A DNA stretch of 39,764 nucleotides, taken from positions 1 to 39,764 of the forward strand of contig JAFYBM010000042.1 of assembly GCA_017540225.1 (NCBI GenBank). The letters are read 5' to 3'. This stretch comes from Oscillospiraceae bacterium. GTDB taxonomy: Bacteria > Bacillota > Clostridia > Oscillospirales > Ruminococcaceae. The notes under the pieces were generated by a model. It was not told the DNA's origin. It searched no databases and saw nothing but the letters and a program-made list of their open reading frames with translations. Position numbers and translations under genes: made by a program. Below, in pieces: positions 10,012 to 26,567 of this stretch; positions within the stretch are counted from its first letter, which is position 1; the number at the start of each line of letters is the position of its first letter.

Positions 10012-10260
10012 ATGGGAACCAGAGTTGCGGTCATTGCGATCATTGTGCAGAACAGTGAATCCGCAGTGCAGCTCAATGCCCTGCTCCATGAATTTGACCG
10101 GTATATTATCGGCCGCATGGGGCTGCCCTACCGCAAAAGGGGCATCAGCATTATCAATATTGCAATCGACGCACCGCAGGATGCGGTCAACCGTCTGGCC
10201 GGCAGCATCGGCAGACTGGAGGGCGTCACTGCAAAAACCGTTTACGCACCTGAAAAATGA
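10012..10260 (+). CDS. TM1266-family putative regulator (iron-only hydrogenase system type)
   Basis: 82 residues. The pattern R-V-A-V-I-A-I-I-V near the start, LLHEFDRYIIGRMGLPYRKRG at about 25-45 and a terminal GVTAKTVYAP match the TM1266 family (TIGR03959). That family has an ACT/NikR-like ferredoxin fold and is normally found beside hydE, hydF and hydG, the [FeFe]-hydrogenase maturation genes. A regulatory role is only presumed for the family. Here none of those genes is adjacent; instead a terminator-like hairpin and then a NifH-like gene follow. AAAGGA lies 9 bases before the ATG. Confidence 0.85.
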   Translation: MGTRVAVIAIIVQNSESAVQLNALLHEFDRYIIGRMGLPYRKRGISIINIAIDAPQDAVNRLAGSIGRLEGVTAKTVYAPEK

Positions 10261-10343
10261 ATCAATTGTTTTCTTCTGATGCCAAAACGCGGCAAAAGCC
10301 GTCTTGCGGCAAAAGCAGACAACCGCAGCATTATAAAACGGGA

Positions 10344-10380
10344 AGCTGTATCTGCAATCAGAAGCAGGTGCGGCTTTTTT
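10344..10380 (+). terminator. Strong intrinsic terminator, possible attenuator, ahead of the first NifH-like gene
   Basis: AGCTGTATCTGC (10344-10355) pairs with GCAGGTGCGGCT (10364-10375) over 12 positions, three of them G-U, around an 8-base loop, and is followed by a six-T run (10375-10380). It lies only 27 bases before the NifH-like start at 10408, too little room for a separate downstream promoter. Transcription must therefore either read through it or start just before it. A weak TATAAA at 10332-10337 lacks a good -35 at normal spacing. Confidence 0.75.
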
Positions 10381-10407
10381 CTATTCGCTGACGGAAAGGG
10401 GCTTATC

Positions 10408-11163
10408 ATGATTAAAATTGCGATCTACGGGAAGGGCGGCATCGGAAAATCAACGATCTCATCTAATATTTCCGCGGCACTCGCACAGCGCGGCCTGAAG
10501 GTCATGCAAATCGGATGTGATCCGAAAGCCGATTCGACCGCACTGCTTCACGGCGGCAGCCGTATCCCGACCATCTTGCAGCTGGAACGCGAAAAAGCAA
10601 GCAGGATCACACTTTCAGATGTTGTTATCGTCAGCGGGACAGGCGTGATCTGCGTGGAGGCGGGCGGCCCTGTACCGGGTGTCGGCTGTGCGGGACGCGG
10701 CATCATCAATGCGCTCGAAACCCTCAAAAAGCTCGGCGCCTATGAAACCTATCAACCGGATCTTGTGATCTATGATGTGCTCGGAGATGTGGTCTGCGGC
10801 GGCTTCTCCATGCCGATGCGAAAGGGATATGCCGACCGCGTGTTCGTTGTGACATCCGGTGAAAAAATGGCGCGCTATGCAGCCGGAAATATCTGCATGG
10901 CTGTGCAGAATTTTCAGGGGCGCGGTTATGCCTCGCTCGGCGGACTGATCCTCAACCGACGGAATGTTCCGGATGAGGATGCTGTCACTGCGGCGCTTGC
11001 GGCGGATTTTGATACGAAGATCATCGGTACGCTGGATCGTGCCGCGGAGATTCAGCAGGCTGACGATGCCGGTATTCCGTTTGTGACGGCCTATCCGGAC
11101 AGCACCGCTGCTGCACAGCTCCGTGCGATTGCCGATGCGGTTCTATCGGAATGCGGGGAATGA
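10408..11163 (+). CDS. NifH-like ATPase iron protein, first copy
   Basis: 251 residues, shorter than nitrogenase NifH (~275-295) and close to NifH-like reductases. It has the Walker A motif GKGGIGKS at 8-15, switch [10 protein letters not shown] at 36-44, and both cysteines that ligate the subunit-bridging [4Fe-4S] cluster: C94 in VGCAGRG and C130 in GDVVCGG. The segment [15 protein letters not shown] corresponds to the NifH switch/docking region. Such proteins pass single electrons to a NifDK-type partner with ATP hydrolysis. The partner is probably the adjacent D/K pair. The start is chosen at 10408 after AAAGGGG; an in-frame extension to 10279 would run through the terminator hairpin. Not a true nitrogenase subunit: nifE, nifN and nifB are absent. 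Confidence 0.9.
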   Translation: MIKIAIYGKGGIGKSTISSNISAALAQRGLKVMQIGCDPKADSTALLHGGSRIPTILQLEREKASRITLSDVVIVSGTGVICVEAGGPVPGVGCAGRGIINALETLKKLGAYETYQPDLVIYDVLGDVVCGGFSMPMRKGYADRVFVVTSGEKMARYAAGNICMAVQNFQGRGYASLGGLILNRRNVPDEDAVTAALAADFDTKIIGTLDRAAEIQQADDAGIPFVTAYPDSTAAAQLRAIADAVLSECGE

Positions 11164-11165
11164 AT

Positions 11166-12473
11166 ATGCAGTATGAAAAGCCCGCATCTGTGCGGATTTC
11201 TGAAGCGGACCCGAACGGTTTTTTTGTATCGGGACTGGAATACAGTCCGCCGGTGCGCGGAATGTGGAATATCGTTCACATGGGAATGCTCGTGCCGGAA
11301 GCGCATCAGATCTATTGCTGTGCGCAGGGCTGTCTGCGCGGCGTCATCCTGACGGCAGCGGAAATGAATACAATGGAGCGCCTGAGCTGGATCTCACTGA
11401 CCGAGGAGGATATGTTCAACGGCACACTGGAGGAAAGTATCGTCGAAGGCACCTGTGAAATCCTCGAAAAGCTCACAGATAAGCCGAAAATGGTTCCGCT
11501 GTTTCTGAGCTGTATGCATCTGTTTGCAGGCTGTGATTTTGAGGGCGTAATCAGTGATCTCAGCGCAAGGTATCCGGATATTACATTCGTGGATTGCTAT
11601 ATGACACCGACCATGCGCACAACGATCTCGCCGGTCGCACAGTGCAGCAGACAGCTCTATATGGGCTTGCAGCCGCTGCCGCGCAATGAAAACAGCGTGA
11701 ATATCATCGGCTGCGACCGTCCGACAGATCCGCAATCAGAGCTTGTGAAGATCATCCGCGGTGCCGGTCTGACACTGCGTGATCTGCCGCTCTGCGAATC
11801 CTACGACGACTATCTGCAAATGGCCGAAAGCAAGCTGAATATCCTGTATCTGCCGACGGCACACGCGGCCGCCGATGCACTGGAGGAACGGCTCGGCATT
11901 CCGCAAATCTATGTACCTGCACACTTTTTGTTCGATCGGATCACGGAGAATTACCGGAGACTATGTGAAGCACTGGCAATTCCCTGCCCTGATTTCACAG
12001 ATGCGTGTGCCGCAGCTGACCGTGCGCTCCGTGAAACGAAATCCGTGATCGGTGATATGCCGCTTGCAATTGATTATACCGCGGTGACGCGCCCCTTTGA
12101 GCTGGCACAGCTTCTCTGCGAATACGGCTTCGATGTGCGTTATATCATTGCGGAGGCTGCCGGTGAGGACAGCGAATCCTTCCTCTGGCTGCGCGAAAAC
12201 CGGCCGGAGATCGTGCTGTTTTCTCCGACCAATGTGAATATGCTGCATCAGGATTCGCAGCCGCATGAGCCGATGCTTGCAATCGGACAGAAGGCTGCAT
12301 ACTATTTTGCTACTGACCGTTTTGTGAATTTCGTGGTCAACGGCGGTTATTACGGCTTTGCGGGTGTGCAGCAGATCGCAGAGCTGATGACGGATGCGTT
12401 CCGTCATCCCAAAAACCGCCGCGCGCTGCTCCGCCATAAAGGCTTCGGCTGCGATTCCTGTCTCCTTGCGTAA
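11166..12473 (+). CDS. NifD-like nitrogenase component 1 type protein (D1)
   Basis: 435 residues with the three-Rossmann layout of the component 1 oxidoreductase family. The cysteine-bearing segments are C51, C52 and C56 (IYCCAQGCLRG), C97, and C116 (FLSCMHLFAGCD, also C123). By eye the C51-C56 block and C116 align with P-cluster ligands C88 and C154 of NifD. No counterpart of NifD C62 precedes them. The C-terminus ends in an unusual GFGCDSCLLA. It is a diverged relative of the D-like protein at 17903. The start at 11166 puts GGGG at a 7-base spacing; ATG 11160 would give an ATGA overlap with the NifH-like gene. Probably binds an Fe-S cluster and possibly a larger cofactor; substrate unknown. 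Confidence 0.8.
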   Translation: MQYEKPASVRISEADPNGFFVSGLEYSPPVRGMWNIVHMGMLVPEAHQIYCCAQGCLRGVILTAAEMNTMERLSWISLTEEDMFNGTLEESIVEGTCEILEKLTDKPKMVPLFLSCMHLFAGCDFEGVISDLSARYPDITFVDCYMTPTMRTTISPVAQCSRQLYMGLQPLPRNENSVNIIGCDRPTDPQSELVKIIRGAGLTLRDLPLCESYDDYLQMAESKLNILYLPTAHAAADALEERLGIPQIYVPAHFLFDRITENYRRLCEALAIPCPDFTDACAAADRALRETKSVIGDMPLAIDYTAVTRPFELAQLLCEYGFDVRYIIAEAAGEDSESFLWLRENRPEIVLFSPTNVNMLHQDSQPHEPMLAIGQKAAYYFATDRFVNFVVNGGYYGFAGVQQIAELMTDAFRHPKNRRALLRHKGFGCDSCLLA

Positions 12474-12506
12474 CGGCGGCAGGGTTGCTTTTGACAAAAC
12501 TATGCG

Positions 12507-12519: not shown

Positions 12520-12578
12520 AATATAAACCCGCCGGAGGCACCTCTGTCGCCGCTGCGCGGGGAGAGAGGGGATTGCAG

Positions 12579-13733
12579 ATGAGACAGGTGACGAGGATTA
12601 TTCCGTGTTATGCGGCGGATACATCCGGAGTCTGCTCGGCGCTCTACGAGCTGGGCGGGATGATTGCGGTACACGACGCATCGGGTGTGAACTCGACCTA
12701 CGCGACGCACGATGAACCGCGCTGGGAACAGAATCACGCGATGATCTATGTATCCGGTCTGACGGAGCTGGACGCGATTCTCGGAAACGACGAAAAATAT
12801 ATTGCGGATGTTGTATCGGCGGCTGCCGATCAGAACCCGGCCTTTCTTGCGGTCTGCGGCTCGCCGATGCCCATGATGATCGGTGTGGATTTTGACGCGG
12901 TCGCGGCAGAAATTGAACAGCGCAGCGGCATCCGTACCTTTGCGCTGCACACAAACGGGATGCATTCCTATATTGAAGGTGCGGCAGAGGCGCTGCTTGC
13001 AATTGCCGAAGAATATGTGCAGCCCGCATCACAAAAAATACGAAACGGCGTAAATATTCTCGGCGCAACACCGCTGGATTCCGGCAATATGCAGCAAATA
13101 CAGAGTATCCGCGCATGGCTTGCCGAAAACGGCTTTTCGGTCGTTTCCTGTTTTGCAATGGGCGATGATCTGCAAACGCTCGGCCGTGCGGCAGAAGCGG
13201 CGGTCAGTCTGGTTATATCGCAGACAGGGCTTGCGGCTGCACAATATTTTTCTCAGAGATTTGGTATTCCGTATGTCTGCGGTGTGCCGGTCGGTTTACA
13301 GTTTTCTGCACAGCTTGCTGACGCGCTGCGCTGTGCCGCTGATACCGGAGAAAGCGCGTATCCGTGTGCATTTCGCAGCGGAAGCGGCGCAAAAACCGTT
13401 CTCATCGGGGAAAGCATTTCGGCCGGATCGCTTGCTGCGGCGCTTGGCATGGACGGCACGCCTGCAAGTGTCATCTGCCCGCTGCCGCACGATGAAAAGT
13501 CCCTCGGTGCGGCGGATTCCGGTGCCGCAAGTGAACAGGATATTGCGGATGTTCTCGCACAAATGCAGCCGGAAACAGTCATTGCAGATCCGCTTTACCG
13601 TTTCATTCTTCCGGAAAATGCGCGGCTGATCGAGCTGCCGCACTATGCATTCTCCGGCCGCTGCTTTGAGACAAAAATGCCCGATCTGACCGCCGGACGG
13701 TTCGGAACATGGCTGCGGGAGGTGCAGGCATGA
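12579..13733 (+). CDS. NifK-like nitrogenase component 1 type protein (K1)
   Basis: 384 residues, clearly paralogous to the protein at 19186. Shared elements are SG-x-C then YELGG near 17-27, DEPRW at 45-49, LDAILG near 64-69, NILGATPLDSG (K2: GVIGATPLNTG) mid-protein and a C-terminal PHYA-x-SG. C19 and C93 (LAVCGSP) are the likely counterparts of NifK C70 and C153. The middle ligand position (NifK C95) is valine 37 here, whereas K2 has cysteine there. Length is below NifK (~510) and fits a minimal core. A TTG two codons upstream is in frame, but ATG 12579 has GAGAGGGG 7 bases away. Presumably forms a heterotetramer with D1. Confidence 0.75.
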   Translation: MRQVTRIIPCYAADTSGVCSALYELGGMIAVHDASGVNSTYATHDEPRWEQNHAMIYVSGLTELDAILGNDEKYIADVVSAAADQNPAFLAVCGSPMPMMIGVDFDAVAAEIEQRSGIRTFALHTNGMHSYIEGAAEALLAIAEEYVQPASQKIRNGVNILGATPLDSGNMQQIQSIRAWLAENGFSVVSCFAMGDDLQTLGRAAEAAVSLVISQTGLAAAQYFSQRFGIPYVCGVPVGLQFSAQLADALRCAADTGESAYPCAFRSGSGAKTVLIGESISAGSLAAALGMDGTPASVICPLPHDEKSLGAADSGAASEQDIADVLAQMQPETVIADPLYRFILPENARLIELPHYAFSGRCFETKMPDLTAGRFGTWLREVQA

Positions 13734-14428
13734 GCTTGCAGGAATATGCTGCGGTGCAGCAAATCGCAAAGGACACGGTCGCATATCTGAAAACGGTCAT
13801 CCGCGCAGGGATGCATCTGACGGAAGTTCGCCGGCTTTGCGAGGAGAAAATGCTTGCGCTCGGCGCAGATTCATTCTGGTATTATAATATCGGCGCGTTT
13901 GTGTTTTCGGGCGATGAAACAGCAGTTTCGCTCTCCGGACGGGATTACAAAACGCCTGACCGCTGCCTTGCGGAGAATGATATTCTGACCGTCGATCTCA
14001 GTCCGCAGCGCGGGAATATCTGGGGTGACTTTGCGCGGACGATTATCCTTGAAAATGCGCAGGTGCGTCAAAATCCATACGAAATACAAAACGCGGAGCG
14101 CCGCCGCGGTCTGCTGACTGAGGAGCTGCTGCACCGCGAAATGCGCCGGTTTGTTACGCCGGAAACCACATTTTCCTCGCTCTGTGAGCACATGAACCGC
14201 GTGATTGAAGCGGAGGGCTTTGTCAATCTGGATTATCGCGGCAATCTCGGGCATTCCATCGAAACGGCGCGCGATGCCCGCATTTATATTGAGCCGGAAA
14301 ATGGACGTCCGCTTGCATCGGTGCGGTATTTCACGTTCGAGCCGCATATCGCGCTGCCGGACTCGAAATACGGCTATAAGCATGAAAACATCTATTATTT
14401 TGCAGACGGCGTTCTGCATGAATTGTGA
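13730..14428 (+). CDS. M24-family (pita-bread) metallopeptidase-like protein
   Basis: 232 residues forming just the catalytic pita-bread domain. All five metal ligands of the methionine aminopeptidase/PepP fold can be placed: D89 and D100 (TVDLSPQRG, WGDFART), H175 (LGHSIE), E204 (FTFEPHI) and E219 (KHENIYYF). Family members cut N-terminal or X-Pro bonds; others, such as creatinase, do non-peptidase hydrolysis. It overlaps K1 by 4 bases (ATGA) with GGAGG 7 bases ahead, so it is translationally coupled to the nitrogenase-like genes. It could process a subunit or hydrolyse a small C-N substrate; neither can be decided here. Confidence 0.75.
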   Translation: MSLQEYAAVQQIAKDTVAYLKTVIRAGMHLTEVRRLCEEKMLALGADSFWYYNIGAFVFSGDETAVSLSGRDYKTPDRCLAENDILTVDLSPQRGNIWGDFARTIILENAQVRQNPYEIQNAERRRGLLTEELLHREMRRFVTPETTFSSLCEHMNRVIEAEGFVNLDYRGNLGHSIETARDARIYIEPENGRPLASVRYFTFEPHIALPDSKYGYKHENIYYFADGVLHEL

Positions 14429-14434
14429 GGAAAT

Positions 14435-14839
14435 ATGAAGAATTCAAGCCATGTTGAAGGCATCGGGACACTCCTGCAAACGCTGCCGGAGGAAATGCAG
14501 CATTGGCACAGATTCGGCCGTATTGCGGAGCTGCATTTTACGCAGGAATGGGATGATATGCACGGCCGGGCGGTTGCCTGCGCGGAGATGATTCTGACCG
14601 ATGATGCAGAACAATATGCGATCCGGCTGACGCTCCGGAATGTCCGCGGGCGGTTTGCGTTTGATTTGCAGAACGGTTTTTGCTGCGGCGTGTCGATTCA
14701 GGAATACTTCGGCCGCGGCTATGAAGCGGACAGCAGATTTCGCTTTGCAGCGGTTGAATTTGCATCGGAGGAGCAGGGGAATAATACGGCTGTTTACTGC
14801 GAACGCATCAAAGCGGAACTGATAGAGGAAAAAGTATGA
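14435..14839 (+). CDS. Unknown small protein in the nitrogenase-like operon
   Basis: 134 residues, soluble, rich in aromatic and acidic residues, with no family I recognise. After a short helical start ([14 protein letters not shown]) it reads like a mixed beta fold: ALVAC-type and [13 protein letters not shown] strands, then [20 protein letters not shown] and a final [20 protein letters not shown] precedes the ATG. It sits 6 bases after the M24 gene and overlaps the second NifH-like gene by 4 bases. Tight coupling suggests a role with the second iron protein. Confidence 0.65.
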
Positions 14840-15603
14840 TAAAGCTGGCAATTTACGGAAAAGGCGGCATCGGAAAATCAACCTGCACGGCAAATCTTGC
14901 AGCGGCATTTGCGATGCGCGGAAAAAAAGTCATCCAGATCGGCTGCGATCCGAAAGCGGATTCGACAATCAATCTGCTCGGCGGCAGGCCGGTCACGCCC
15001 GTCATGGACTGGATGCGCGATCATGACGATGAGCCGGATTCGCTGGATCAGATCTCGGCACGCGGCTTCGGCGGTGTGCTCTGCATCGAAACGGGCGGCC
15101 CGACACCGGGGCTGGGCTGCGCGGGGCGCGGTATCATTACAACCTTTAGTCTGTTGAAGGAGCTGCGCCTCTTTGAAACAGAACAGCCGGACGTTGTGCT
15201 CTATGATGTACTCGGCGATGTCGTCTGCGGCGGCTTTGCGGCGCCGATCCGCGAGGGCTATGCGGAGCAGGTGCTGATCGTGACCTCCGGCGAAAAAATG
15301 GCGCTCTATGCTGCAAACAATATCAACAATGCGGTCAAAAATTTTGAGGACAGAAGCTATGCAAAGGTGCGCGGACTGATCCTCAACCGCAGAAATGTCA
15401 CGGATGAGGCGCAAAAGGTATATGCCTTTGCGGAATCGGCGGGACTGGCTGTTGCAGCGGATATTCCGCGCTCGGATGACATTACAAAGTACGAGGATAC
15501 GGGTAAAACCGTCATTGAAGGGAATCCGGAATGCGAAACGGCAAAACGCTTTTTTGCACTGGCGGATCTGCTCATTGCGGAGAAAGGCGGGCGTGATGTT
15601 TGA
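14836..15603 (+). CDS. NifH-like ATPase iron protein, second copy
   Basis: 255 residues. Walker A GKGGIGKS at 8-15, GCDPKADST at 36-44, and cluster cysteines C95 (LGCAGRG) and C131 (GDVVCGG) are intact. The segment [13 protein letters not shown] is close to nitrogenase NifH. It differs from the first copy mainly in the 46-80 region (acidic [12 protein letters not shown] insert) and in the C-terminal third. It lacks the C-terminal extension of true NifH. The start overlaps the upstream stop codon (ATGA) with GAGG 7 bases ahead. The nearest following D/K pair is at 17903-20214, so I infer this copy serves that pair, though the two iron proteins could be interchangeable. Confidence 0.9.
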
Positions 15604-16030
15604 GTTTCTGTGCTTGTTCGGAAAAAAATTCCGGATCTTCATTGCAATATTGCTGTATCTCATCGCGGGTGCCGCACTATTTTATTTCATTCCGGATACG
15701 ATAGATTATCTGCGCGCACGCGGCCGGCAGACCGTTTCGGCGGAGATCATTTCCACGGAGGAGCATACCAATGCCGACAACGAGCGCGAATACCGCGTCA
15801 CCATGCAGTATGTGATCGACAACAGAAAATATTACTATACCGAATACACAAAGAACTGCCCTTCCGGCAGACAAAAGCTGCACGTTTATCTGCTCGCTGA
15901 CGGAAACTGGGCGGTCTATGAGCTCAATATTGGCGGTATTCTGGTTCTGATCGGCATTGCAGCAGCTTCGGCGGTCTGCGGTACGCGGCTGATTCTATCC
16001 TGCCGTGAAAAAAAGGAAGGCACATCATGA
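15596..16030 (+). CDS. DUF3592-like membrane protein
   Basis: 144 residues with a hydrophobic segment at ~13-31, an extracytoplasmic or lumenal beta-rich region (~45-100) and a second segment at ~108-128. This two-helix layout with a conserved middle ([25 protein letters not shown]) fits the DUF3592 family, whose function is unknown. It overlaps the end of the second NifH-like gene by 8 bases and the next gene by 4. It is the only membrane protein inside the nitrogenase-like block, so it may anchor part of the system. Confidence 0.6.
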
Positions 16031-16497
16031 GAAGAAACGACAGAGCGGTCACCGATATGGCACAGATCGAAGCATTTATCGCAAAAGAGCAGATTCTCCG
16101 CGTTGCGTTTTACGATGCAGGCGAGATCTATATTGTACCGGTCAATTATGGATACCGTCTCGAAAACGGAAGCTGTTGCTTCTATTTTCACGGTGCGAAG
16201 GCGGGGCGGAAATATACGCTCGCGCAGCAGAATCCGTCTGTCGGATTTGAGATTGACGGGAACTATGCGCTGCTCTCTGCGGATACGGCGTGCGGGCATT
16301 CCGCGAAATATATGAGCGTGACCGGCACCGGAAAGCTGCAAGTCGTATCGGATGAAGCGGAAATTGTTTCCGGTCTGCAATGCATTATGCGGCAGACGAC
16401 CGGGAAAGCAGACTGGACGTTTGATGAAGCGGTATTGCAGAAAACGGCGCTGTTCCGGCTCGATGCCGAAACGCTTTCCTGTAAGGCGAAGGGGTAA
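16027..16497 (+). CDS. Pyridoxamine 5'-phosphate oxidase-like flavoprotein (NimA-type)
   Basis: 156 residues with the split-barrel flavin-binding fold. The pattern [18 protein letters not shown], then RVAFYD, YIVPVNYGYRLENG and FHGAKAGRK follows the NimA/PNPOx-related family. Family members bind FMN, F420 or heme and reduce nitro compounds or other small molecules; resistance to 5-nitroimidazoles is known for some. Here the ATGA overlap and operon position suggest a reductase or electron-handling role in the nitrogenase-like pathway, not drug resistance. Cofactor and substrate cannot be deduced. Confidence 0.75.
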   Translation: MRRNDRAVTDMAQIEAFIAKEQILRVAFYDAGEIYIVPVNYGYRLENGSCCFYFHGAKAGRKYTLAQQNPSVGFEIDGNYALLSADTACGHSAKYMSVTGTGKLQVVSDEAEIVSGLQCIMRQTTGKADWTFDEAVLQKTALFRLDAETLSCKAKG

Positions 16498-16501
16498 TAC
16501 G

Positions 16502-17260
16502 ATGAATGCAAAGGAACAGATCGCGGCAGCAAAGCAGAGCTTTGAACAGAGCTTTGCAGCAGGGGCGTTTTACAATAAGCAGACGCAGGATGCAGACCAT
16601 TTGCAGCAGATTCTTTCATTTCTGCCGCTGAAAAGCGAAATGCGCGTGCTTGATCTCGGAACGGGCAGCGGCTATCTTGCGTTTGCGCTTGCGGCGGCAC
16701 ATCCGGATATCGAAATCACAGGCCTCGATATTGTTGAGCAGGCACTGGATGTCAACCGCAAAAGAGCGGCGCGGGAACAGCTTGCCAATCTGCATTTTGT
16801 CAGCTATGACGGGATGGATTTTCCGTTTGCGGATGCTGCATTTGATCTCGTTGTGTCGCGGTATGCGCTGCATCATTTCCCGGATATTGCGCACAGCATC
16901 GGCGAGGTCAGCCGTGTTCTGAAACCTGCCGGATCCTTTTTTCTCTCCGACCCGATGCCCAATCCCTGCGATACCAGCGGCTTTGCGGATGCATTTATGC
17001 GCTTGAAACCGGACGGCCATATCCGGTTTTATGGCAAAGATGACTGGATTCGGCTCTGCGGCGGCAGCGGAATGATACTTTCCGGCGGCTTCGGGAGCAT
17101 CATACGCTTTCCGCGAAAACGCAGTGCCGAAAACGAATATGAAACGTTGATCTCGCAGTACCCGCGGGAGGTTGTCGAAAGCTATGACCTGCAAATCGCC
17201 GGCGATGAAATATGGATTACAGAGCGTGTGAATAACCTTCTGTTCCGGAAAACTACATAG
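16502..17260 (+). CDS. Class I SAM-dependent methyltransferase
   Basis: 252 residues with the Rossmann SAM-binding core. Motif I is VLDLGTGSGYLAFA near 49-62, the acidic residue ending strand 2 is in GLDIVEQALD near 75-84, and DLVVSRYALHHF near 116-127 is the motif IV region typical of UbiE/Methyltransf_11 proteins. The C-terminal part (from ~170) is specific and unassigned. It starts 4 bases after the flavoprotein gene. Could methylate a small molecule or a cofactor precursor made by the operon. Confidence 0.85.
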   Translation: MNAKEQIAAAKQSFEQSFAAGAFYNKQTQDADHLQQILSFLPLKSEMRVLDLGTGSGYLAFALAAAHPDIEITGLDIVEQALDVNRKRAAREQLANLHFVSYDGMDFPFADAAFDLVVSRYALHHFPDIAHSIGEVSRVLKPAGSFFLSDPMPNPCDTSGFADAFMRLKPDGHIRFYGKDDWIRLCGGSGMILSGGFGSIIRFPRKRSAENEYETLISQYPREVVESYDLQIAGDEIWITERVNNLLFRKTT

Positions 17261-17271: not shown

Positions 17272-17895
17272 ATGGCAAAAGAAATTGATCCGCAAAAAAC
17301 ATCCAGAGCAGCAGCATTTGCCATCTGGATGCAGGCACCGAATCCGATGGTGACGCTCATGAAAACGCTGGATGTCTCAAATCTGATCCGCGTCAGCCGG
17401 CGGCGGCACCTGAAATTCAATATGCTGCTCTGTTTCTGTATTGGCAAGGCTGCGGCGCAGATTCGGGAATTCTATCTGCTTCCGGTGCGGCAAACGCTGA
17501 TGCAGTATGACAGTCTTGCAGTCAGCGTGATCGTACCGAATAAACAAGGCGGGCTTTGTTCATGCGATATTCTGTTCCGGAATGATCTTCGGGCGTTCCA
17601 TCGGGATTATATGAAATATACGCGCCTTGCGGCGGAACGCTGTCAGGAACACGATCTTTCGGCGGAGAGTATGGTGATCGGCACCTCAGCCGTCACCGAA
17701 ACCGATCTTGACGGCGCAGTCGGCATGAACAGCGGCATTTACAATAATCCGTTTATGATCTGGGGCAGATACCGGAAAGGACTGCTGCGCTGCACGCTGC
17801 CGGTATCATTCCAGTTTCATCATACACAGATGGACGGCGGCCACGCAGGGCGTTTTCTGGAACTGTTACAGTGTGAAATCAATCGTATCAGGTAG
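17272..17895 (+). CDS. CAT-fold (chloramphenicol acetyltransferase-like) acyltransferase
   Basis: 207 residues, near the usual CAT length (~215). The catalytic signature HHxxxDG is present as H183-H184-T-Q-M-D188-G189, with H184 matching the catalytic histidine of type III CAT. The N-terminal segments (FNMLLCFCIGKAA) match the CAT fold. Several cellular enzymes share this fold, so resistance is not implied. Its position between the methyltransferase and the second D/K pair suggests acylation of a pathway intermediate. Confidence 0.75.
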   Translation: MAKEIDPQKTSRAAAFAIWMQAPNPMVTLMKTLDVSNLIRVSRRRHLKFNMLLCFCIGKAAAQIREFYLLPVRQTLMQYDSLAVSVIVPNKQGGLCSCDILFRNDLRAFHRDYMKYTRLAAERCQEHDLSAESMVIGTSAVTETDLDGAVGMNSGIYNNPFMIWGRYRKGLLRCTLPVSFQFHHTQMDGGHAGRFLELLQCEINRIR

Positions 17896-19189: not shown

Positions 19190-20214
19190 GCAATCTGCTG
19201 AAGCATTTGTCTCCTCTTGCACCGGATGATTCCGGTGCCTGCGGGGTATTCTATGAGCTGGGCGGCATCACGGTCATCTGCGATGCCGGCGGCTGTGCGG
19301 GCAATGTCTGCGGCTTCGATGAACCGCGCTGGCACGAGAAAAAATCGGCATTGTTTAGCGCCGGACTTCGTGATATGGACGCAATTCTCGGCCGCGATAA
19401 GCTGCTGATTGACAAGCTCGCAAAAATCACAGAGCAGATTCCCGCTGCATTCACGGCGATCATCGGCACGCCTGTTCCGGCAGTCATCGCTACGGATTAT
19501 TCCGCTTTACAGCGCATGGCGGAAAGAAAGACTGGTCTTCCGTGCATCACAATTGAATCAGACGGCACACGCGGCTATGATTTTGGTGAAATGCTTGCCT
19601 ACTCAAGATTGTTCCGTACATTTGCAAAAGAGCAATATCCTACTAAAAAAGGGAAGCTCGGCGTGATCGGTGCAACCCCGCTGAATACGGGCTTAACTCG
19701 TGCCGGAAGCATTACAAATTCATTGACGGATAAAGGATGGAATGAAGTCGTTTGCTTGGGGATGGACAGTGATCTTTCCGAAATCGTCCGCGCTTCGGAA
19801 TGTGAGAAGATACTCGTAATTTCTCCGTCCGGAATTAAAGCTGCGGAATATATGCAGGAAAAATTTGATGTGTCGTTTGAAACCGGATATCCGGTGCTGC
19901 CGGAAGACATTATTCAGCGAACAAAATTTTTGTCCGGCAAGCACGTTCTGATCGTGCATCAGCAGTTTGCGGCAAACGCACTTCGCAATATTATTACAAA
20001 TTGTGACGCTACCTGTGCGACATGGTTCATGCTGGATCCGCGATACGCATTGAAGGATGACTTTACAATACGCGATGAAACAACGTTTCGTGAAGCAGTG
20101 CAAAGCTATGATGTTGTGATCGCAGACAAAATGTTTCGGCGCGCAGCGCGCGGTTTTTCCGGTGAATGGATAGACTTTCCGCATTACGCCGTCAGCGGCG
20201 CTGCGGAATTCTGA
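19186..20214 (+). CDS. NifK-like nitrogenase component 1 type protein (K2)
   Basis: 342 residues, the smaller paralogue of K1. C19 (DSGACG) and C37 in CDAGGCAGN match NifK C70 and C95; C32 and C42 are additional nearby cysteines. The third ligand position reads IIGTPVP, with no cysteine, the reverse of the pattern in K1. DEPRW (45-49), GVIGATPLNTG and PHYAVSGAA are shared with K1. The first half has the GC-rich codon use of the operon, while from about 19600 the DNA is visibly more AT-rich. ATGA overlap with D2, with GAGGG 7 bases ahead. Confidence 0.75.
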   Translation: MSNLLKHLSPLAPDDSGACGVFYELGGITVICDAGGCAGNVCGFDEPRWHEKKSALFSAGLRDMDAILGRDKLLIDKLAKITEQIPAAFTAIIGTPVPAVIATDYSALQRMAERKTGLPCITIESDGTRGYDFGEMLAYSRLFRTFAKEQYPTKKGKLGVIGATPLNTGLTRAGSITNSLTDKGWNEVVCLGMDSDLSEIVRASECEKILVISPSGIKAAEYMQEKFDVSFETGYPVLPEDIIQRTKFLSGKHVLIVHQQFAANALRNIITNCDATCATWFMLDPRYALKDDFTIRDETTFREAVQSYDVVIADKMFRRAARGFSGEWIDFPHYAVSGAAEF

Positions 20215-20228
20215 GAGAGGAGCAATCG

Positions 20229-20663
20229 ATGATCAGAGAAATAAACGAAGCCGATTTTGACGGCCTGATGCAGCTTTATACGCATCTGCATGAGAATCCG
20301 ATTCCTGAAAAAAGCAGCGCACTCACTGCGCTCTGGCAGCAGATTCTTTGTGATCAGTCGCACCATATTATTGTTGCGGAGATTGATGAAAAGATCGTAT
20401 CTTCGTGCGTTTGCGTGATAATCCCGAATCTGACGCACGCGCAGCGGCCTTACGCACTTGTCGAAAATGTCGTGACACATCCGGATTACCGTAAACGCGG
20501 CCTTGCATCCGCCTGTCTTGACTTTGCCAAGCGTCTTGCTATACAAAACAACTGCTATAAAATCAGTCTGATGACCGGCGCAAAAGATGCGGAAACACTG
20601 CGCTTTTATGAACACGCAGGCTATAACCGCAAAGATAAAACCGCGTTTATTCAGTGGCTTTGA
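20229..20663 (+). CDS. GNAT-family N-acetyltransferase
   Basis: 144 residues. The acetyl-CoA binding motif appears as VVTHPDYRKRGLASACLDFA near 84-103 (the [RQ]xxGx[GA] loop is RKRGLA), followed by C-Y-K-I-S-L-M and the family's FYEHAGY end. GAGAGGAGC precedes the ATG 6-7 bases away. It lies between K2 (14-base gap) and hypF (19-base gap), so it is part of the operon. The substrate is unknown. Confidence 0.85.
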   Translation: MIREINEADFDGLMQLYTHLHENPIPEKSSALTALWQQILCDQSHHIIVAEIDEKIVSSCVCVIIPNLTHAQRPYALVENVVTHPDYRKRGLASACLDFAKRLAIQNNCYKISLMTGAKDAETLRFYEHAGYNRKDKTAFIQWL

Positions 20664-20682
20664 AACGGAGGAATCTCGCGCC

Positions 20683-22995
20683 TTGACATTACAAATTCAT
20701 ATCTACGGCATCGTACAGGGCGTCGGCTTTCGGCCGTTTACCGCTGTAACAGCGGCGCGCTGCGGCATTCGCGGAACGGTTGCAAATAAAGGCTCTTATG
20801 TTGAAATTGTTGCACAGGGAACACAGGAAAATATCTTTACATTTTTGGAACAAATTCTGAAGAATCCGCCGGATCGTGCAATGATCCTCAGCATAGACAG
20901 TGAAGAAATAGATGACGCAAAAGCAACGCTATTCCGTGATTTTCAGATTATTGAAAGTGAAAAGGAATACGGGGATATTTTCGTATCACCGGATATTGCA
21001 ACCTGCAACAAATGCAGAACAGAATTATTTGAAATGAAAAACCGCCGCTATCTGCATCCCTTCATTAACTGCACTCAGTGCGGCCCGCGCCTGACGATTC
21101 TCGACACGATGCCCTATGACCGTGAGCGCACGAGTATGCGGGAATTTCCGATGTGCAGTCAGTGCGCGGCGGAATACCATGATCCTGCAACACGGCGTTA
21201 TGATGCCCAGCCAAACTGCTGCAATGACTGTGGCCCCGAGGTCTATATAATTGGTACAAAATTGCGGAGCCATGAAGCAATATCAGCGGTGCGCTGCGCT
21301 GTTTCTGAAGGAAAAATTGCAGCAATTAAGGGGATCGGCGGATTCCATTTATGTTGTGACGCAAGAAACGCTGCGGCAGTACAGCGCTTGCGAACACTGA
21401 AAAATCGCCCTGCGAAGCCATTTGCGGTGATGATGCGCGATTTGCAAACTGTCGAACGCGAATGTATCATTCATGATTCACAGCGCGAAATGCTGACGGG
21501 CTGGCAAAAACCAATTCTGCTCCTTGAAAAGCGCGCGCAAATGACGATTTGTAATAATATTGCTCCCGACAACCGGACGGTGGGCGTCATGCTTCCCTAT
21601 GCTCCCGTGCAGATGCTGCTGTTTGATTATCCTGACGGCGTGCAAATGACGGACTGCCTTGTCATGACCAGCGGAAATGTGCGCGGTGCACCGATCTGCC
21701 GTAACGATGAAGATGCAGTGCGTGAAATCGGCGGCTTCTGTGATCTGATTCTTTCACATAACCGTAAAATCCGCCTGAGAGCTGATGATTCTGTATGTGA
21801 CTGGCTGAACGGCAGGCCGTATATGATCCGCCGTTCGCGCGGTTTTGCACCGCTTCCGGTTATGATTCATCAAAAAAAACATCCGCAGATTCTTGCAATC
21901 GGCGGTGAATTGAAAAACAGTTTCTGCATTGCGAAGGGAGGGCTTCTGTATGCTTCGCCGTATATCGGAGATATGGCCGACATACGGACGGTGAATGCTT
22001 TGCGCGAATCCGCAGACCGGATGTGCGGACTGCTGGAAGCAAAACCGGAAGCTGTGGTATGCGATACGCATCCCCTTTACAATACGGTTTCTGTTGCACG
22101 GGAAATCGCGCAGGAGCTGGATATTCCGTTGATTCAGGTTCAGCATCATTACGCGCATATCCTATCCTGTATGGCGGAAAACAATGTGACAGATCCTGTC
22201 ATCGGACTGAGTTTCGACGGAACTGGCTATGGCGACGATGGTACAATCTGGGGCGGTGAGCTTCTTGTTTGTGATACAAAAAACTATCGCAGTGCCGGCA
22301 GCATTCAGCCGTTTTTGCAGATCGGCGGTGATCTTTCCGCAAGGGAAGGATGGCGGATTGCAGCTGCACTGCTGCATGATGTTTTTTCTGAAGATGCGCA
22401 GAAAATCTGTGAATCGCTCGGCGTTTGTTCTGCACAGGAATACAAGCTGCTTATTAATATGTCGCGCATGGGAATCAATACGATTCGCTCTACAAGCTGC
22501 GGCCGTATATTTGATGCTGTGGCCGCGATTCTCGGCATTCGCCGTGCTTCATCCTTTGAGGGTGAAGCGTCTGCTGCACTTATGAACGCAGCAGAGCAAT
22601 ATTATTCAAATCATGGAGATTCCCTGCCTGAATTTCCGTTATATTGCAAAAACAATGACGGATTTCTTATCATGCAGACTACAGATCTTGTCGCGGAAAT
22701 TGTAAAGTCTTTTCTTTCAGATTGTTCCCCTGAGAACCGTCTGCATCTTGCTTATCAATTCCATGTATCGCTCGCAGAGCTGTGTGTGCAATTATGTATT
22801 AAAACACGCGAAGATACCGGAATTTCCGTATGCGCATTAAGCGGCGGCGTATTTCAGAACCGTTTGCTCACAAGAATTACAATTGAAAAGCTGACTGCAT
22901 CCGGATTTACCGTTTTGCAGCACAGTCTGATCCCGCCCAATGACGGCGGAATCTGCATCGGACAGGCGTTGTATGGCGTTTATAATGCAGAATAA
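20683..22995 (+). CDS. hypF: Carbamoyltransferase HypF
   Basis: About 770 residues, full length. In order: acylphosphatase domain (VQGVGFRPF near 10-18), two zinc-finger halves (CNKC ... CTQCGPR and CSQC ... CNDCGPE, residues ~108-185), a YrdC domain (KIAAIKGIGGFHLCCDA near 210-225), and the Kae1-like carbamoyltransferase part (HHYAH near 488, GLSFDGTGYGDDG near 507, ALSGGVFQN near 725). HypF makes carbamoyl-adenylate from carbamoyl phosphate and ATP and passes the carbamoyl group to HypE. The start is TTG 20683 with GGAGG 11 bases before, giving a normal N-terminus. Codon use is AT-richer than the nitrogenase-like genes. Confidence 0.95.
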   Translation: MTLQIHIYGIVQGVGFRPFTAVTAARCGIRGTVANKGSYVEIVAQGTQENIFTFLEQILKNPPDRAMILSIDSEEIDDAKATLFRDFQIIESEKEYGDIFVSPDIATCNKCRTELFEMKNRRYLHPFINCTQCGPRLTILDTMPYDRERTSMREFPMCSQCAAEYHDPATRRYDAQPNCCNDCGPEVYIIGTKLRSHEAISAVRCAVSEGKIAAIKGIGGFHLCCDARNAAAVQRLRTLKNRPAKPFAVMMRDLQTVERECIIHDSQREMLTGWQKPILLLEKRAQMTICNNIAPDNRTVGVMLPYAPVQMLLFDYPDGVQMTDCLVMTSGNVRGAPICRNDEDAVREIGGFCDLILSHNRKIRLRADDSVCDWLNGRPYMIRRSRGFAPLPVMIHQKKHPQILAIGGELKNSFCIAKGGLLYASPYIGDMADIRTVNALRESADRMCGLLEAKPEAVVCDTHPLYNTVSVAREIAQELDIPLIQVQHHYAHILSCMAENNVTDPVIGLSFDGTGYGDDGTIWGGELLVCDTKNYRSAGSIQPFLQIGGDLSAREGWRIAAALLHDVFSEDAQKICESLGVCSAQEYKLLINMSRMGINTIRSTSCGRIFDAVAAILGIRRASSFEGEASAALMNAAEQYYSNHGDSLPEFPLYCKNNDGFLIMQTTDLVAEIVKSFLSDCSPENRLHLAYQFHVSLAELCVQLCIKTREDTGISVCALSGGVFQNRLLTRITIEKLTASGFTVLQHSLIPPNDGGICIGQALYGVYNAE

Positions 22996-23033
22996 AATAA
23001 GTTTCATATTATTATAATTTTGGAGGTTCAATT

Positions 23034-23243
23034 ATGTGTGTCGGATTATCTGCAAAAGTTGTAAAAGTTGAGGAAGGCACTGCGCTTATTGACGCGAGCG
23101 GTGCACAGCGTGAAATCAGTGCCGGTGTACTCGATGATCTTGAGCCGGGTGATTTCGTGATGGTTCATGCGGGCGTGGCAATCGCAAAAATCACGGAAGA
23201 TGAAGCTGCCGAGGCGGACGAAGTGATGGAGGAACTGCTGTGA
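23034..23243 (+). CDS. hypC: Hydrogenase maturation chaperone HypC
   Basis: 69 residues, typical of HypC/HybG (70-90). The essential N-terminal cysteine is C2 (MCVGLSAKV), and the H45 region PGDFVMVHAGVAI matches the conserved GDYVLVHVGFA motif. HypC with HypD carries the iron on which two CN and one CO are assembled. The canonical M-C-[LIV]-G-[IV]-P start has S instead of P. TGGAGGTT lies 6 bases upstream. It overlaps hypD by 4 bases. A TATAAT-like AT-rich stretch precedes it, but no clear -35 box is visible. Confidence 0.95.
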   Translation: MCVGLSAKVVKVEEGTALIDASGAQREISAGVLDDLEPGDFVMVHAGVAIAKITEDEAAEADEVMEELL

Positions 23244-24286
23244 ACGAGAGTGCAAACCGCGCACGGGATATTATTACCGGCTATAACGGCCGTCCGCTTC
23301 GGATTATGGAGGTATGCGGCACGCACACGCACGAAATATTCCGCATTGGCCTGCGGAAGCTGCTTCCGCCGCAGATCGACCTGATCTCCGGTCCGGGATG
23401 TCCGGTTTGCGTCACGGCAGTCGGATTTATCGACGAGGCGATCTGGCTTGCGCTGGAAAAAGGATGTATGATTTGCACATTCGGTGATCTCATTCGTGTG
23501 CCCGGTACCGAGATGAGCCTTGCCGGTGCGCGCAGCAGGGGCGGAGAAATCCGGCCTGTATATTCGCCGCTGGACGCAGTTGCGCTTGCGAAGGATAATC
23601 CGGATAAACAGGTTGTTTTTCTTGCAGTCGGTTTTGAAACAACAACGCCTTCTGCGTGTCTGGCTGCGAAGCAGGCGAAGGAAGCCGGCCTTACAAATTT
23701 CTCGCTCCTGACCGCAAACAAGACAATGCCGAACGCCTATCAGGCGCTTGTCGGCAGCGCGGATGCGTTCCTGTATCCGGGTCATGTCAACGCGATCACG
23801 GGCAATGCGACCTGCATCAAATTGTGTGAAGAACAGGGCGTTTCCGGTGTTGTTGCGGGATTTACGGCGAGCGAGCTGCTGACAGCGCTGGCCGTGACAA
23901 TCAGGCTGCTTGAAAAGGGTGAGCCGTTCTTCCGCAATTGTTATCCGCGGGTTGTAAAAGATGAGGGCAACCCCGCGGCAATCCGCATGATGAACGAGGT
24001 CATGGAGCCGTGCGACAGCGAATGGCGCGGGCTTGGGCTGATCGCGGGTTCGGGCATGAAGCTGCGGGCGGAATATGCGGCTTACGATGCACGCCTGAAA
24101 TTTGATATGCCGGTCATCACGGGCAAGCCTAATCCGGCGTGCCGCTGCGGCGATGTGCTGCAAGGCAAGATTCGCCCGTGCGACTGCAAGGTGTTCGGAA
24201 AGGTTTGCACGCCGCTGCATCCGGTCGGGGCGTGCATGGTTTCGGACGAGGGAGCCTGCGCGGCGTATTATCAGTACGCTCTATGA
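23240..24286 (+). CDS. hypD: Hydrogenase iron-cyanide/CO scaffold HypD
   Basis: 348 residues, full length (~360 typical). The redox and iron-binding motifs are intact: EVCGTHT at 24-30 (C26), GPGCPVC at 51-57 (C54, C57), and GFETTTP. The C-terminal [4Fe-4S] cysteines are present in CRCGD, CDCKVFGKVC and GACMVSDEGAC. HypD receives cyanide from HypE and holds the Fe(CN)2CO unit with HypC. The start is GTG 23240 overlapping the hypC stop (GTGA). GC content returns to the higher level of the operon here. Confidence 0.95.
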   Translation: MNESANRARDIITGYNGRPLRIMEVCGTHTHEIFRIGLRKLLPPQIDLISGPGCPVCVTAVGFIDEAIWLALEKGCMICTFGDLIRVPGTEMSLAGARSRGGEIRPVYSPLDAVALAKDNPDKQVVFLAVGFETTTPSACLAAKQAKEAGLTNFSLLTANKTMPNAYQALVGSADAFLYPGHVNAITGNATCIKLCEEQGVSGVVAGFTASELLTALAVTIRLLEKGEPFFRNCYPRVVKDEGNPAAIRMMNEVMEPCDSEWRGLGLIAGSGMKLRAEYAAYDARLKFDMPVITGKPNPACRCGDVLQGKIRPCDCKVFGKVCTPLHPVGACMVSDEGACAAYYQYAL

Positions 24287-25017
24287 ACGCGAGGGATTAT
24301 CTTGAAATTCTGCATCTTGCAGAACGATTAAAAGACACGCTGCGGCATTGCACAACATCAAAACGCAGAACAGAGAGTGTCGCGGAACACAGTTGGCGTG
24401 TGTCGCTGCTGGCATTTCTGATGCGGAAAGAATTTCCGGATGTGAATATGGATAAGGTGATAAAAATGTGCCTGATTCATGATCTTGGAGAATGCTTTAC
24501 CGGAGATATTCCGACATTTGAAAAGACCGATGCTGACAGGAAAATTGAAGATTCACTGCTGCGGCAATGGCTTCATTCGCTGCCGGAGAATATTGCAGAA
24601 GAATTCCTGCCGCTGTTTGATGAAATGGATGCAATGCAAACGCCGGAAGCTAAAATCTGCAAGGCGCTTGATAAACTCGAAGCATTGATTCAGCATAATG
24701 AATCGCCGCTTGATACATGGTCGGAGAATGAGTTTTCGCTGAACAAAAACTATGCATTTGATACGGTGGCTTTTTCAGCGCCGCTGACGGAATTGCGCAA
24801 TGAAATTCTCGCAGATACAATGAAAAAGATTGAGGAAGAGCAAATGGAACCGCATGATTATATTGTCACGGATATTCAGGGCGATTACGCCTATCTGATG
24901 CAAACCGATACGGACGGCGCAGAGCCGTTTCAGGTTGCGATGGCGCTGCTGCCGCCGGAGACTGACATCGGCACAAAGCTGCGCGGATTTATGGGAATGT
25001 TTGAAGTCATCGGATGA
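24283..25017 (+). CDS. HD-domain hydrolase (YfbR/HDDC2-like) with a small C-terminal barrel domain
   Basis: 244 residues. The HD residues are H36 (SVAEHSW), H66-D67 (CLIHDLGE) and a later aspartate near ALDKLEALIQH. This is the pattern of 5'-deoxynucleotidases and related HD phosphohydrolases. From about residue 192 a separate segment (DYIVTDIQGDYAYL ... ALLPPETDIGTKL) resembles DUF3006-like small beta domains. The start overlaps the hypD stop (ATGA). It is not a standard hyp gene; insertion between hypD and hypE suggests a job in the same pathway, possibly on a nucleotide or phosphate ester. Confidence 0.75.
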   Translation: MNARDYLEILHLAERLKDTLRHCTTSKRRTESVAEHSWRVSLLAFLMRKEFPDVNMDKVIKMCLIHDLGECFTGDIPTFEKTDADRKIEDSLLRQWLHSLPENIAEEFLPLFDEMDAMQTPEAKICKALDKLEALIQHNESPLDTWSENEFSLNKNYAFDTVAFSAPLTELRNEILADTMKKIEEEQMEPHDYIVTDIQGDYAYLMQTDTDGAEPFQVAMALLPPETDIGTKLRGFMGMFEVIG

Positions 25018-25028
25018 GGAGATGCATG

Positions 25029-25544
25029 ATGAAAATTACACTTGTCAGACCGGCGCCGGAGCATCAGGCGGCTGCAACGGCATTCCGGCAGGCATTTTTT
25101 GATGCCGGCGAAACGGTCATCAACGGCAGCGAGCTGCTCGACCAAACCGAAAGCTATGACGACTGGCTCAAGGCCGTCACCGACAACACGAACACCGAAA
25201 CGGTCAATCCCGAATGGGTTGTGACGGATACATTTTTTGCTTTTGACGCAGAAGAAAAGCTCATCGGCATCATTGATTTCCGGCATGAGCTGAAAGGCTT
25301 TCTGGTTGATTTCGGTCACTGCGGCTACAGTGTCCGGCCGGACGAGCGCTGCAAGGGCTATGCAACGGAAATGCTGCGTCTGCTGCTGGAATATGCGAAG
25401 AAATGCGGCTTTGAGAGCCTGCAGCTCTCGGTTGAACGCAAAAATGCACCGTCGGTGCGCACGATTGTGAAGAACGGCGGAACCTACGAGCGCAGCTTTG
25501 CATTTGAAGGTGAAACGGCGGATGTTTACCGCATTATATTATAA
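25029..25544 (+). CDS. GNAT-family N-acetyltransferase
   Basis: 171 residues. SVRPDERCKGYATEMLRLLLEYAKKCG near 98-124 is the acetyl-CoA loop, followed by SLQLSVERKNAPSVRTIVKNGGTY, the usual RimJ/RimL-like C-terminal half. The start at 25029 has AGGAG 7 bases away; a tandem ATG at 25026 is possible. Placed between the HD gene (11-base gap) and hypE (15-base gap). Substrate unknown. Confidence 0.8.
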   Translation: MKITLVRPAPEHQAAATAFRQAFFDAGETVINGSELLDQTESYDDWLKAVTDNTNTETVNPEWVVTDTFFAFDAEEKLIGIIDFRHELKGFLVDFGHCGYSVRPDERCKGYATEMLRLLLEYAKKCGFESLQLSVERKNAPSVRTIVKNGGTYERSFAFEGETADVYRIIL

Positions 25545-25559
25545 AAGGAGCATTTTATC

Positions 25560-26567
25560 ATGAGCGAAAAGACAGTCACGCTTGCACACGGCGCGGGCGG
25601 CACACAAACAAATGAACTGATTGACAGCGTATTCAAGGCGCATTTTGCAAACCCGATGTTTACCGGCGATGATGCCGCCGTTCTGCCGCCGATCAGCGGA
25701 AAAATCGCAACCTCGACGGACGGCTTTATTGTTTCGCCGTGGAAATTTCCGGGCGGCAATATCGGAAAGCTCTCGATCTGCGGCACGGTCAACGATCTCT
25801 CCTGCATGGGCGCAAAGCCGCTTTATCTGACCTGTGCATTTGTGATCGAGGAAGGCTTCCCGATGGACGCACTGGAAGAAATCGCCGCTGCAATGGAGAA
25901 AACCGCGGCGGAGGCCGGTGTCCGCATTGTGGCCGGTGATACGAAGGTTGCGGGCAGGGGACAGTGCGACGGTGTATTCATCACAACAACGGGTATCGGA
26001 GAGATCATGCCGCAGGCACAGACTTCCGGTACACTTGCAAAACCCGGTGATGCGATTATTGTGACGGGCGATGTCGGACGGCACGGCTGCACGATTCTGC
26101 TTGCCCGCGATGACTATGGCATCGAATCCGATGTGGACAGCGACTGTGCGCCGCTTTGGAGTGCAGTTGAAACGCTTTATCAGGTGACGGACGAAATTCA
26201 TGTGATCCGCGATGCAACGAGAGGCGGCGTCGGCACAGTGCTGTATGAGATTGCCGGACAAAGCAGTGTCGGTATGCAGATTCAGGCAGCAAGCGTACCG
26301 GTTGATCCGCGTGTCAGGGGTGTCTGCGGAATGCTCGGACTGGATCCGCTCTATCTTGCCTGTGAGGGCAGACTGGTCATCATTGCGCCGCAGCAGCACG
26401 CAGATGCGATTGTTTCAGCACTCCGCAGCGGCAAATACACACAAAATGCAGCAATCATCGGGACAGTGACCGCTGAGAATGCGGGAAAAGTCATCATGGA
26501 AACGGAAATCGGTGCGCAGACCATTCTTCCGCAGCCGAAAGGTGAACTGCTGCCGCGTATCTGCTGA
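25560..26567 (+). CDS. hypE: Hydrogenase maturation protein HypE (cyanide-forming)
   Basis: 335 residues, PurM-like ATPase fold. Motifs: LAHGAGGTQTNELI near the N-terminus, MFTGDDAAVL, the GNIGKLSICGTVNDLSCMG region, a GDTKVAGRG loop, DATRGGVGTVLYEI and a C-terminal LLPRIC. The last residue, C335, is the universally required cysteine that takes the carbamoyl group from HypF and is dehydrated to thiocyanate. Its presence means the CN-donating chemistry should be intact. AAAGGAG lies 9 bases before the ATG. It is not SelD or PurM, which lack the terminal cysteine. Confidence 0.95.
   Translation: MSEKTVTLAHGAGGTQTNELIDSVFKAHFANPMFTGDDAAVLPPISGKIATSTDGFIVSPWKFPGGNIGKLSICGTVNDLSCMGAKPLYLTCAFVIEEGFPMDALEEIAAAMEKTAAEAGVRIVAGDTKVAGRGQCDGVFITTTGIGEIMPQAQTSGTLAKPGDAIIVTGDVGRHGCTILLARDDYGIESDVDSDCAPLWSAVETLYQVTDEIHVIRDATRGGVGTVLYEIAGQSSVGMQIQAASVPVDPRVRGVCGMLGLDPLYLACEGRLVIIAPQQHADAIVSALRSGKYTQNAAIIGTVTAENAGKVIMETEIGAQTILPQPKGELLPRIC

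Follow-up and report, generated by a model that had tools for sequence, protein, structure and literature searches.

What might two nitrogenase-like modules make together with four proteins of the [NiFe]-hydrogenase cyanide machinery? The question is raised by an operon on a 39,764-nucleotide contig of an Oscillospiraceae bacterium (GenBank assembly GCA_017540225.1, contig JAFYBM010000042.1, positions 1 to 39,764 of the forward strand; the whole stretch is called the window), in which Pfam and NCBIfam scans placed ten core genes, H1, D1, K1, H2, D2, K2, HypF, HypC, HypD and HypE, between positions 10408 and 26567 of the + strand. The ten-gene core is conserved, often beside TM1266, HydE and HydF; it occurs without HydG in the 52 genomes tested, with HydE, HydF and the hydrogenase retained nearly throughout. 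Judging from gene content, we give a probability of roughly three in four to the operon encoding a HydG-independent pathway, in which HypCDEF and two nitrogenase-like, ATP-driven enzymes would replace the tyrosine lyase HydG and build the iron precursor of the [FeFe]-hydrogenase H-cluster, with its carbon monoxide (CO) and cyanide (CN) ligands. A preliminary description of the locus had suggested that a Fe-CN-CO unit serves the nitrogenase-like proteins as part of a cofactor or as a substrate, and had set [FeFe]-hydrogenases aside as independent of Hyp proteins. The idea that such a unit feeds something new is retained here. The likely customer, however, is the H-cluster and not some novel cofactor or substrate for the nitrogenase-like proteins, because the cassette goes with TM1266, HydF and HydE, and HydG was never found alongside it in the genomes tested (0/52); the dismissal of [FeFe]-hydrogenases did not hold.

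The core genes and the gene that opens the operon are:

10012-10260, + strand: TM1266-family putative regulator of the "iron-only hydrogenase system", the operon's first gene (TIGR03959, 104 bits; cut-off 60.8)
10408-11163, + strand: H1, NifH-like ATP-dependent reductase (PF00142; Cys37/82/94/130 invariant in 75/75 orthologues kept)
11160-12473, + strand: D1, NifD/NifE-like subunit, with relatives also in genomes lacking both HydG and hypD
12579-13733, + strand: K1, NifK-like subunit, start codon uncertain (PF00148; C21, H34, W51 and H357 invariant in 83/83 kept)
14836-15603, + strand: H2, second NifH-like reductase (PF00142; Cys37/83/95/131 invariant in 84/84 kept)
17903-19189, + strand: D2, second NifD/NifE-like subunit, found only in the Hyp-containing type (PF00148; AlphaFold2 (AF2) pLDDT 86.2)
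19186-20214, + strand: K2, second NifK-like subunit (PF00148; C37, C42 and W49 invariant in 77/77 kept)
20587-22995, + strand: HypF, carbamoyltransferase with zinc-finger and Kae1-like domains (TIGR00143, 761 bits; cut-off 466)
23034-23243, + strand: HypC, chaperone with a conserved N-terminal Cys2, found in 70/70 (TIGR00074, 64 bits; cut-off 48)
23240-24286, + strand: HypD, Fe(CN)2CO assembly protein by family (TIGR00075, 400 bits; cut-off 193)
25560-26567, + strand: HypE, cyanide-forming dehydratase by family, ending in ...RIC (TIGR02124, 416 bits; cut-off 252; Cys335 in 62/62 kept)

The two NifH-family proteins, four PF00148 (nitrogenase component 1) proteins and HypF, HypC, HypD and HypE in one operon, as first described, were confirmed by the Pfam and NCBIfam scans and by invariant cysteines, all four Hyp proteins being of full length and exceeding their curated NCBIfam cut-offs. 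The NifH cysteines, HypC Cys2, HypD Cys26/54/57 and the C-terminal Cys335 of HypE were invariant across 62 to 84 orthologues kept, and C69, C70, C126, C129, C142 and C224 of D2 in 36/36. These counts omit short, cut or broken copies (70 found and 66 kept for HypD, 72 and 60 for HypF, 85 and 77 for D2).

A scan with the D2 profile, at one genome per species, gave 251 relatives, and the best 80 of them by D2 similarity were analysed as loci. All ten genes lay on one strand in 49 of these 80, in the core order H1-D1-K1-H2-D2-K2-HypF-C-D-E in 45 and with H1-D1-K1 last in four. Of the other 31, most are truncated where a contig or locus ends; L041, L047, L055, L071, L081 and L093 were short of genes despite some room. 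The hosts are Ruminococcus-like and Lachnospiraceae genomes, many of them of rumen or gut bacteria, and include Ruminococcus albus AR67 and KH2T6, Ruminococcus sp. YE71, Anaerobutyricum hallii DSM 3353 and Anaerostipes sp. MSJ-23. In a separate sample of the window's family (119 genomes, about one per genus, drafts that may miss genes), a strong D2 match (at least 880 bits) was confined to five genomes with the hyp cassette. The D1 profile matched 2672 of 7999 scored proteins at an E value of 1e-10 or better, and the named relatives among the 120 matches listed were called "nitrogenase component 1" or "hypothetical protein". Some variation in architecture was also observed. In L100:6718-9243 and L117:6680-9235, D1 and K1 lie in one open frame some 840-850 residues long; in L041, L044 and L047, HypE and the HD-domain gene stand just 5' of K1, directly after D1 where D1 is present, a shuffling within the cassette of the window's clade; and the HypF match falls into two pieces in the related Lachnospiraceae loci L106, L110 and L111.

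HydG is regarded as one of three dedicated, required maturases and as the source of the H-cluster CO and cyanide in the account of PMC11736057; it makes both from tyrosine and hands a Fe(CO)2(CN)Cys synthon to HydE (PMC11736057, PMC9431212). HydG (TIGR03955) and HydE were searched for in the genomes of 50 of the 80 loci, and HydG exceeded its cut-off in none of these 50 cassette genomes and in none of the five of the family sample. Three genomes are shared by the two sets (G127, G139 and G143 are G035, G065 and G071 again, at identical places), so that with the window genome G000 and G113 added, 52 distinct cassette genomes were covered, HydG being over its cut-off in none. Among those below it are both R. 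albus strains named above and A. hallii DSM 3353; R. albus is described as hydrogen-producing in PMC6776011.

Across the family sample, HydG was over its cut-off in 48 genomes and HydE in 57. HydE-positive genomes carried HydG in 0/10 cases with D1, compared to 45/47 without D1 (Fisher p 1.5e-9, uncorrected for kinship). Twelve HydE-positive family genomes lacked HydG, namely four with the cassette (G035, G065, G071, G113), six of a second type described below, and two poor assemblies, G016 (55% complete) and G049 (75%, with pieces of HydG next to HydE). In the window's own genus, G108 (99% complete) has HydG at 926 bits and HydE, with no HypD and no D-profile match, which indicates a swap within one genus. 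Weak D-profile matches of 43-72 bits were obtained from seven other genomes; all seven loci were checked and none held a D1, their D proteins reaching at most 59 bits with the D1 profile compared to 591-725 for D1. Five of the seven (G023, G049, G051, G056, G089) have nif-like sets and two (G091, G116) another nitrogenase-like set. The sets in L211, L212 and L213 (G049, G051, G056) are of H-D-K-E type and clearly distinct from the cassette modules. A different nitrogenase-like set, with an importer of the kind found in the second type, lies at L160:3935-10148 and L161:3466-9679 and runs H, binding protein, permease, ATPase, D, K; the importer genes were recognised by eye, and HydE is below cut-off in these genomes.

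The genes flanking the cassette were consistent with a role in [FeFe]-hydrogenase maturation. When the flanking genes were clustered, 31 loci showed a radical SAM protein and 30 a GTPase; the two proved to be HydE and HydF, at 545 and 538 bits in G113. Of the 80 loci, 34 had both HydE and H1, and in 32 of these the distance between the two was -10 to +30 bases; a TM1266 homologue lay upstream in 48 of the 54 loci having H1 and at least 3 kb of upstream sequence; four relatives of the TM1266 gene exceeded the TIGR03959 cut-off. The genome G113 (99% complete) has a contiguous HydF-HydE-H1-D1-K1-H2-D2-K2, then HypF-C-D-E, and comparison with the canonical operon of the family, TM1266-HydE-HydG-HydF (L119, in G013), indicates that the modules occupy the place of HydG.

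The partners of HydG were retained. HydE was over its cut-off in 49/50 cassette genomes. In a 62-genome set made up of 55 cassette handles (52 distinct), the six genomes of the second type and the HydG control G108, HydF was over its cut-off in 58 and HydA in 57, the window genome included at 533 bits. The H-cluster ligand cysteines were intact in all 12 HydA loci fetched, 11 of them from cassette genomes, and the third HydA motif read MGC in place of MAC in seven of the 12. Of the 112 columns invariant in 12 HydG-partnered HydE proteins, none was consistently changed in cassette HydE and 94 were unchanged at 95% or more. On well-supported branches of the HydE tree the cassette label must have changed at least three times, suggesting more than one swap; eight of the 52 HydE slices in the tree and column comparison, retained here, hold a stop that was probably read from upstream of the gene.

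It could be argued that the cassette is unrelated and merely neighbours HydE and HydF, the ligands coming from another protein or from free CO and cyanide. In PMC9431212, no motif-conforming HydG was found in five of eight clostridial acetogens, a finding for which that paper has no straightforward explanation, an atypical HydG-like gene being among its proposals. The same paper cites an activation of about 1% when only HydE and HydF are supplied, which CO or cyanide increased. ThiH-sized matches (166-198 bits) were present in 35 of the 50 cassette genomes. Some cassette genomes, such as G113 and G065, nevertheless had no ThiH-sized match either, and the exclusion of HydG was seen in both lineages and within one genus, with HydE abutting H1 in 32 loci; chance adjacency would leave the loss of HydG unexplained, and we judge this explanation quite improbable.

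A second possible destination for the Hyp products is an overlooked [NiFe]-hydrogenase, with the Hyp proteins as its maturases, as their full length and scores above cut-off would allow. The [NiFe] large subunit (PF00374) was found in none of the five cassette genomes of the family, among them the window assembly, which is 77% complete, and in one of 51 genomes of the wider set (which includes G000 and three family cassette genomes again). That exception, G133, has a [NiFe] large-subunit-like match in L179 (G133:C54:31827-32033) of 51 bits over profile residues 1-69. HypA was likewise absent from the five cassette genomes tested, the 77%-complete window assembly included, so that the pairing without a [NiFe]-hydrogenase or HypA first noticed in the window extends to its relatives. 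HypD occurred in 11 of the 119 family genomes. In G035, G065, G071 and G113 it is 82-85% identical to that of the window and the ten-gene order is the same, whereas six other genomes have divergent HypCDEF, with HypD 36-49% identical; all six of these carry a [NiFe] large subunit and five of them HypA. An overlooked [NiFe]-hydrogenase is therefore largely excluded and very improbable.

Not all HydG-less genomes have hypD. Six (G022, G030, G032, G040, G063, G093) have no HypD, and all six retain HydE and carry a D1-like protein, which scored 98-139 bits with the D2 profile and 298-357 bits by BLAST with the window's D1; the D1 profile was built partly from these six proteins, so their high scores with it arise by construction and BLAST is the independent measure. 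This type carries H and D (D 37-43% identical to D1), as well as K (41-45% to K1) in the five genomes whose locus is long enough; in the same five a Peripla_BP_2 binding protein adjoins the module, and a FecCD permease is present in four. HydE and HydF are in one run with the module in G040 (L152) and HydE alone in G093 and G032, and in G063 and G022 HydE is on a separate contig from the module. Importer ATPases beside H-D-K (L152:1770-2858 and L157:11269-12321) bear a TM1266 domain (PF21699) at the C-terminus and thereby link the importer to the same system. This second form, with H-D-K joined to an iron/cobalamin-type importer and no hypD, suggests H1-D1-K1 as the shared replacement for HydG, supplied in one of two ways by the Hyp branch. 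The preliminary description had held that homologous clusters consistently without hyp genes in other species, together with a [NiFe]-hydrogenase and hypAB elsewhere in the genome, would refute it; this applies by half, as these six have clusters without hypD and also lack HydG and keep HydE.

The six genomes would also agree with only H1-D1-K1 replacing HydG, and H2-D2-K2 with HypCDEF building a separate Fe-CN-CO cofactor or substrate for nitrogenase-like proteins, in line with the preliminary description; the swapped order of the two blocks in four of the 49 complete cassettes points in the same direction. The two blocks nevertheless stand together on one strand in 49/80 loci, and strong D2 matches in the family were restricted to genomes with the hyp cassette. 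One would expect a separate pathway to turn up by itself now and then, but the loci were chosen by D2, and L081 does have D2 without H1-D1-K1 within 5 kb upstream. Overall, we consider such a division of labour unlikely.

Several observations weigh against a HydG-independent H-cluster pathway that includes the Hyp proteins. The six hypD-less genomes still have an H1-D1-K1-type module, so Hyp proteins are not needed in every HydG-less genome, and their contribution is inferred. HydE and HydF were both below cut-off in the window assembly (77% complete), and in the loci of the window's clade (L038-L050) HydE is neither beside H1 nor in the locus; the close relatives G119-G121 have both HydE and HydF, with HydE elsewhere in the genome. 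Scores below cut-off were obtained for HydA in 5/62 genomes, for HydF in 4/62 (G000, G158, G165, G167) and for HydE in 1/50. The HydG and HydE tests covered 50 of the best 80 of 251 D2 relatives, a selection made by D2 similarity. Since HypCD makes Fe(CN)2(CO) and HydE is thought to take Fe(CO)2(CN), a change of ligands must be assumed. The role and chemistry of the cassette were deduced from genomes, and co-occurrence does not show the direction of flux.

HypF and HypE derive a cyanide donor from carbamoyl phosphate; the attachment of CN and CO to iron falls to HypC and HypD, HypCD carrying or making Fe(CN)2(CO). By family chemistry, HypF and HypE of the cassette would likewise form a cyanide donor from carbamoyl phosphate, and HypC with HypD would yield a cyanide-bearing iron. 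More tentatively, H1-D1-K1 and H2-D2-K2, each pairing a D/K-type scaffold with an ATP-driven electron donor of the NifH type, might bind that iron and either reduce it or change its ligand set, for instance by making or adding CO in one or other module. They might then pass a synthon of the Fe(CO)2(CN) type to HydE, which has kept its conserved residues, after which HydF and HydA would act by the usual route. Where anaerobic Hyp systems obtain their CO ligand is, to our knowledge, an open question, and it becomes testable here because the cassette may hold a CO-forming step.

With less assurance, we lean towards a broader interpretation, in which the joining of [NiFe] cyanide machinery to two nitrogenase-like enzymes would constitute a third biological route to a Fe-CO-CN centre, with a nitrogenase-type protein as builder of metal-bound CO and cyanide rather than as substrate reductase, and with HydG displaced more than once in rumen and gut Clostridia. 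If true, a HydG-free route would explain how such bacteria still mature [FeFe]-hydrogenases, link the assembly chemistries of the two hydrogenases and assign a new role to nitrogenase-like proteins. It could also serve as a tyrosine-independent toolkit for hydrogenase production in a host.

The NifH and NifDK folds could alternatively indicate nitrogen-fixing nitrogenases, but all curated NifH, NifD and NifE cut-offs were missed by wide margins. H1 and H2 scored 290 and 301 bits with TIGR01287 (NifH; cut-off 394), and the D and K proteins were far below every curated Nif cut-off, those of NifD and NifE included. The reductase subunits reached a level with CfbC similar to that with NifH (294.9 and 297.0 bits; cut-off 402), and 178 and 208 with BchL (cut-off 345). 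Rumen N2 fixation is, moreover, described as negligible despite common nifH hits (PMC6776011), and nitrogen fixation by these modules appears extremely improbable. The pathway proposed here would, if true, be one answer to the common "nitrogenase" genes of the rumen; that H1 and H2 are among the nifH hits of that study is a guess.

Further genes of the window operon lie outside the conserved core, and those of the M24, PPOX, methyltransferase, CAT, GNAT and HD types are missing from most loci:

13709-14428, + strand: M24 metallopeptidase-like gene (PF00557; in 1/80 loci, L052; absent from L013-L016)
14435-14839, + strand: small gene of unknown family (no Pfam match)
15596-16030, + strand: small gene, an open reading frame with membrane stretches predicted from sequence (no Pfam match)
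16027-16497, + strand: pyridoxamine 5'-phosphate oxidase-like (PPOX) gene (PF12900; among the 80 loci only in L038 and L046)
16352-17260, + strand: methyltransferase, true start probably further in (PF13847 and others; in few loci only)
17272-17895, + strand: CAT-fold (chloramphenicol-acetyltransferase-family) acyltransferase (PF00302; in 0/80 loci)
20166-20663, + strand: GNAT acetyltransferase (PF00583; in a minority of loci, mostly close relatives)
24285-25017, + strand: HD-domain protein (PF13023; in a minority of loci)
25014-25544, + strand: GNAT acetyltransferase, GNAT2 (PF13302)

Overlaps of four bases were found between D2 and K2, HypC and HypD, the small gene at 14435-14839 and H2, the small gene at 15596-16030 and the PPOX gene, and the HD-domain gene and GNAT2. 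The CAT-family protein is inserted in the operon, and the present results do not show a role for it in resistance. A tetrahydrofolate riboswitch (RF01831, 82 bits) at positions 120-221 of the window, + strand, lies 5' of an upstream gene and is unrelated to the cassette.

A cassette of this kind was not described in the open-access literature searched, in which preprint servers were not covered as such. We know of no HydG-free, nitrogenase-like, Hyp-linked route of this sort, although its single parts belong to known families. Compared to the NifEN/NifH scaffold and NifDK, VnfDK and AnfDK, the cassette proteins are only 11-20% identical in fold alignments and miss all Nif cut-offs. The CfbCD (F430 synthesis) and BchLNB (chlorophyll) systems differ in that no tetrapyrrole-synthesis gene was noticed in the cassettes, although none was searched for. 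HypF, HypC, HypD and HypE keep the catalytic cysteines of the HypABCDEF system of [NiFe] maturation, but the cassette hyp genes sit with [FeFe] genes, HypA was found in 0/5 genomes, and the [NiFe] large subunit is nearly always absent. HydE-HydF-HydG maturation differs from the cassette in the use of HydG, which was not found in the genomes tested and in whose place stand two H-D-K modules and HypFCDE; TM1266, HydE, HydF, the client hydrogenase and, in many loci, the place in the operon are shared by both.

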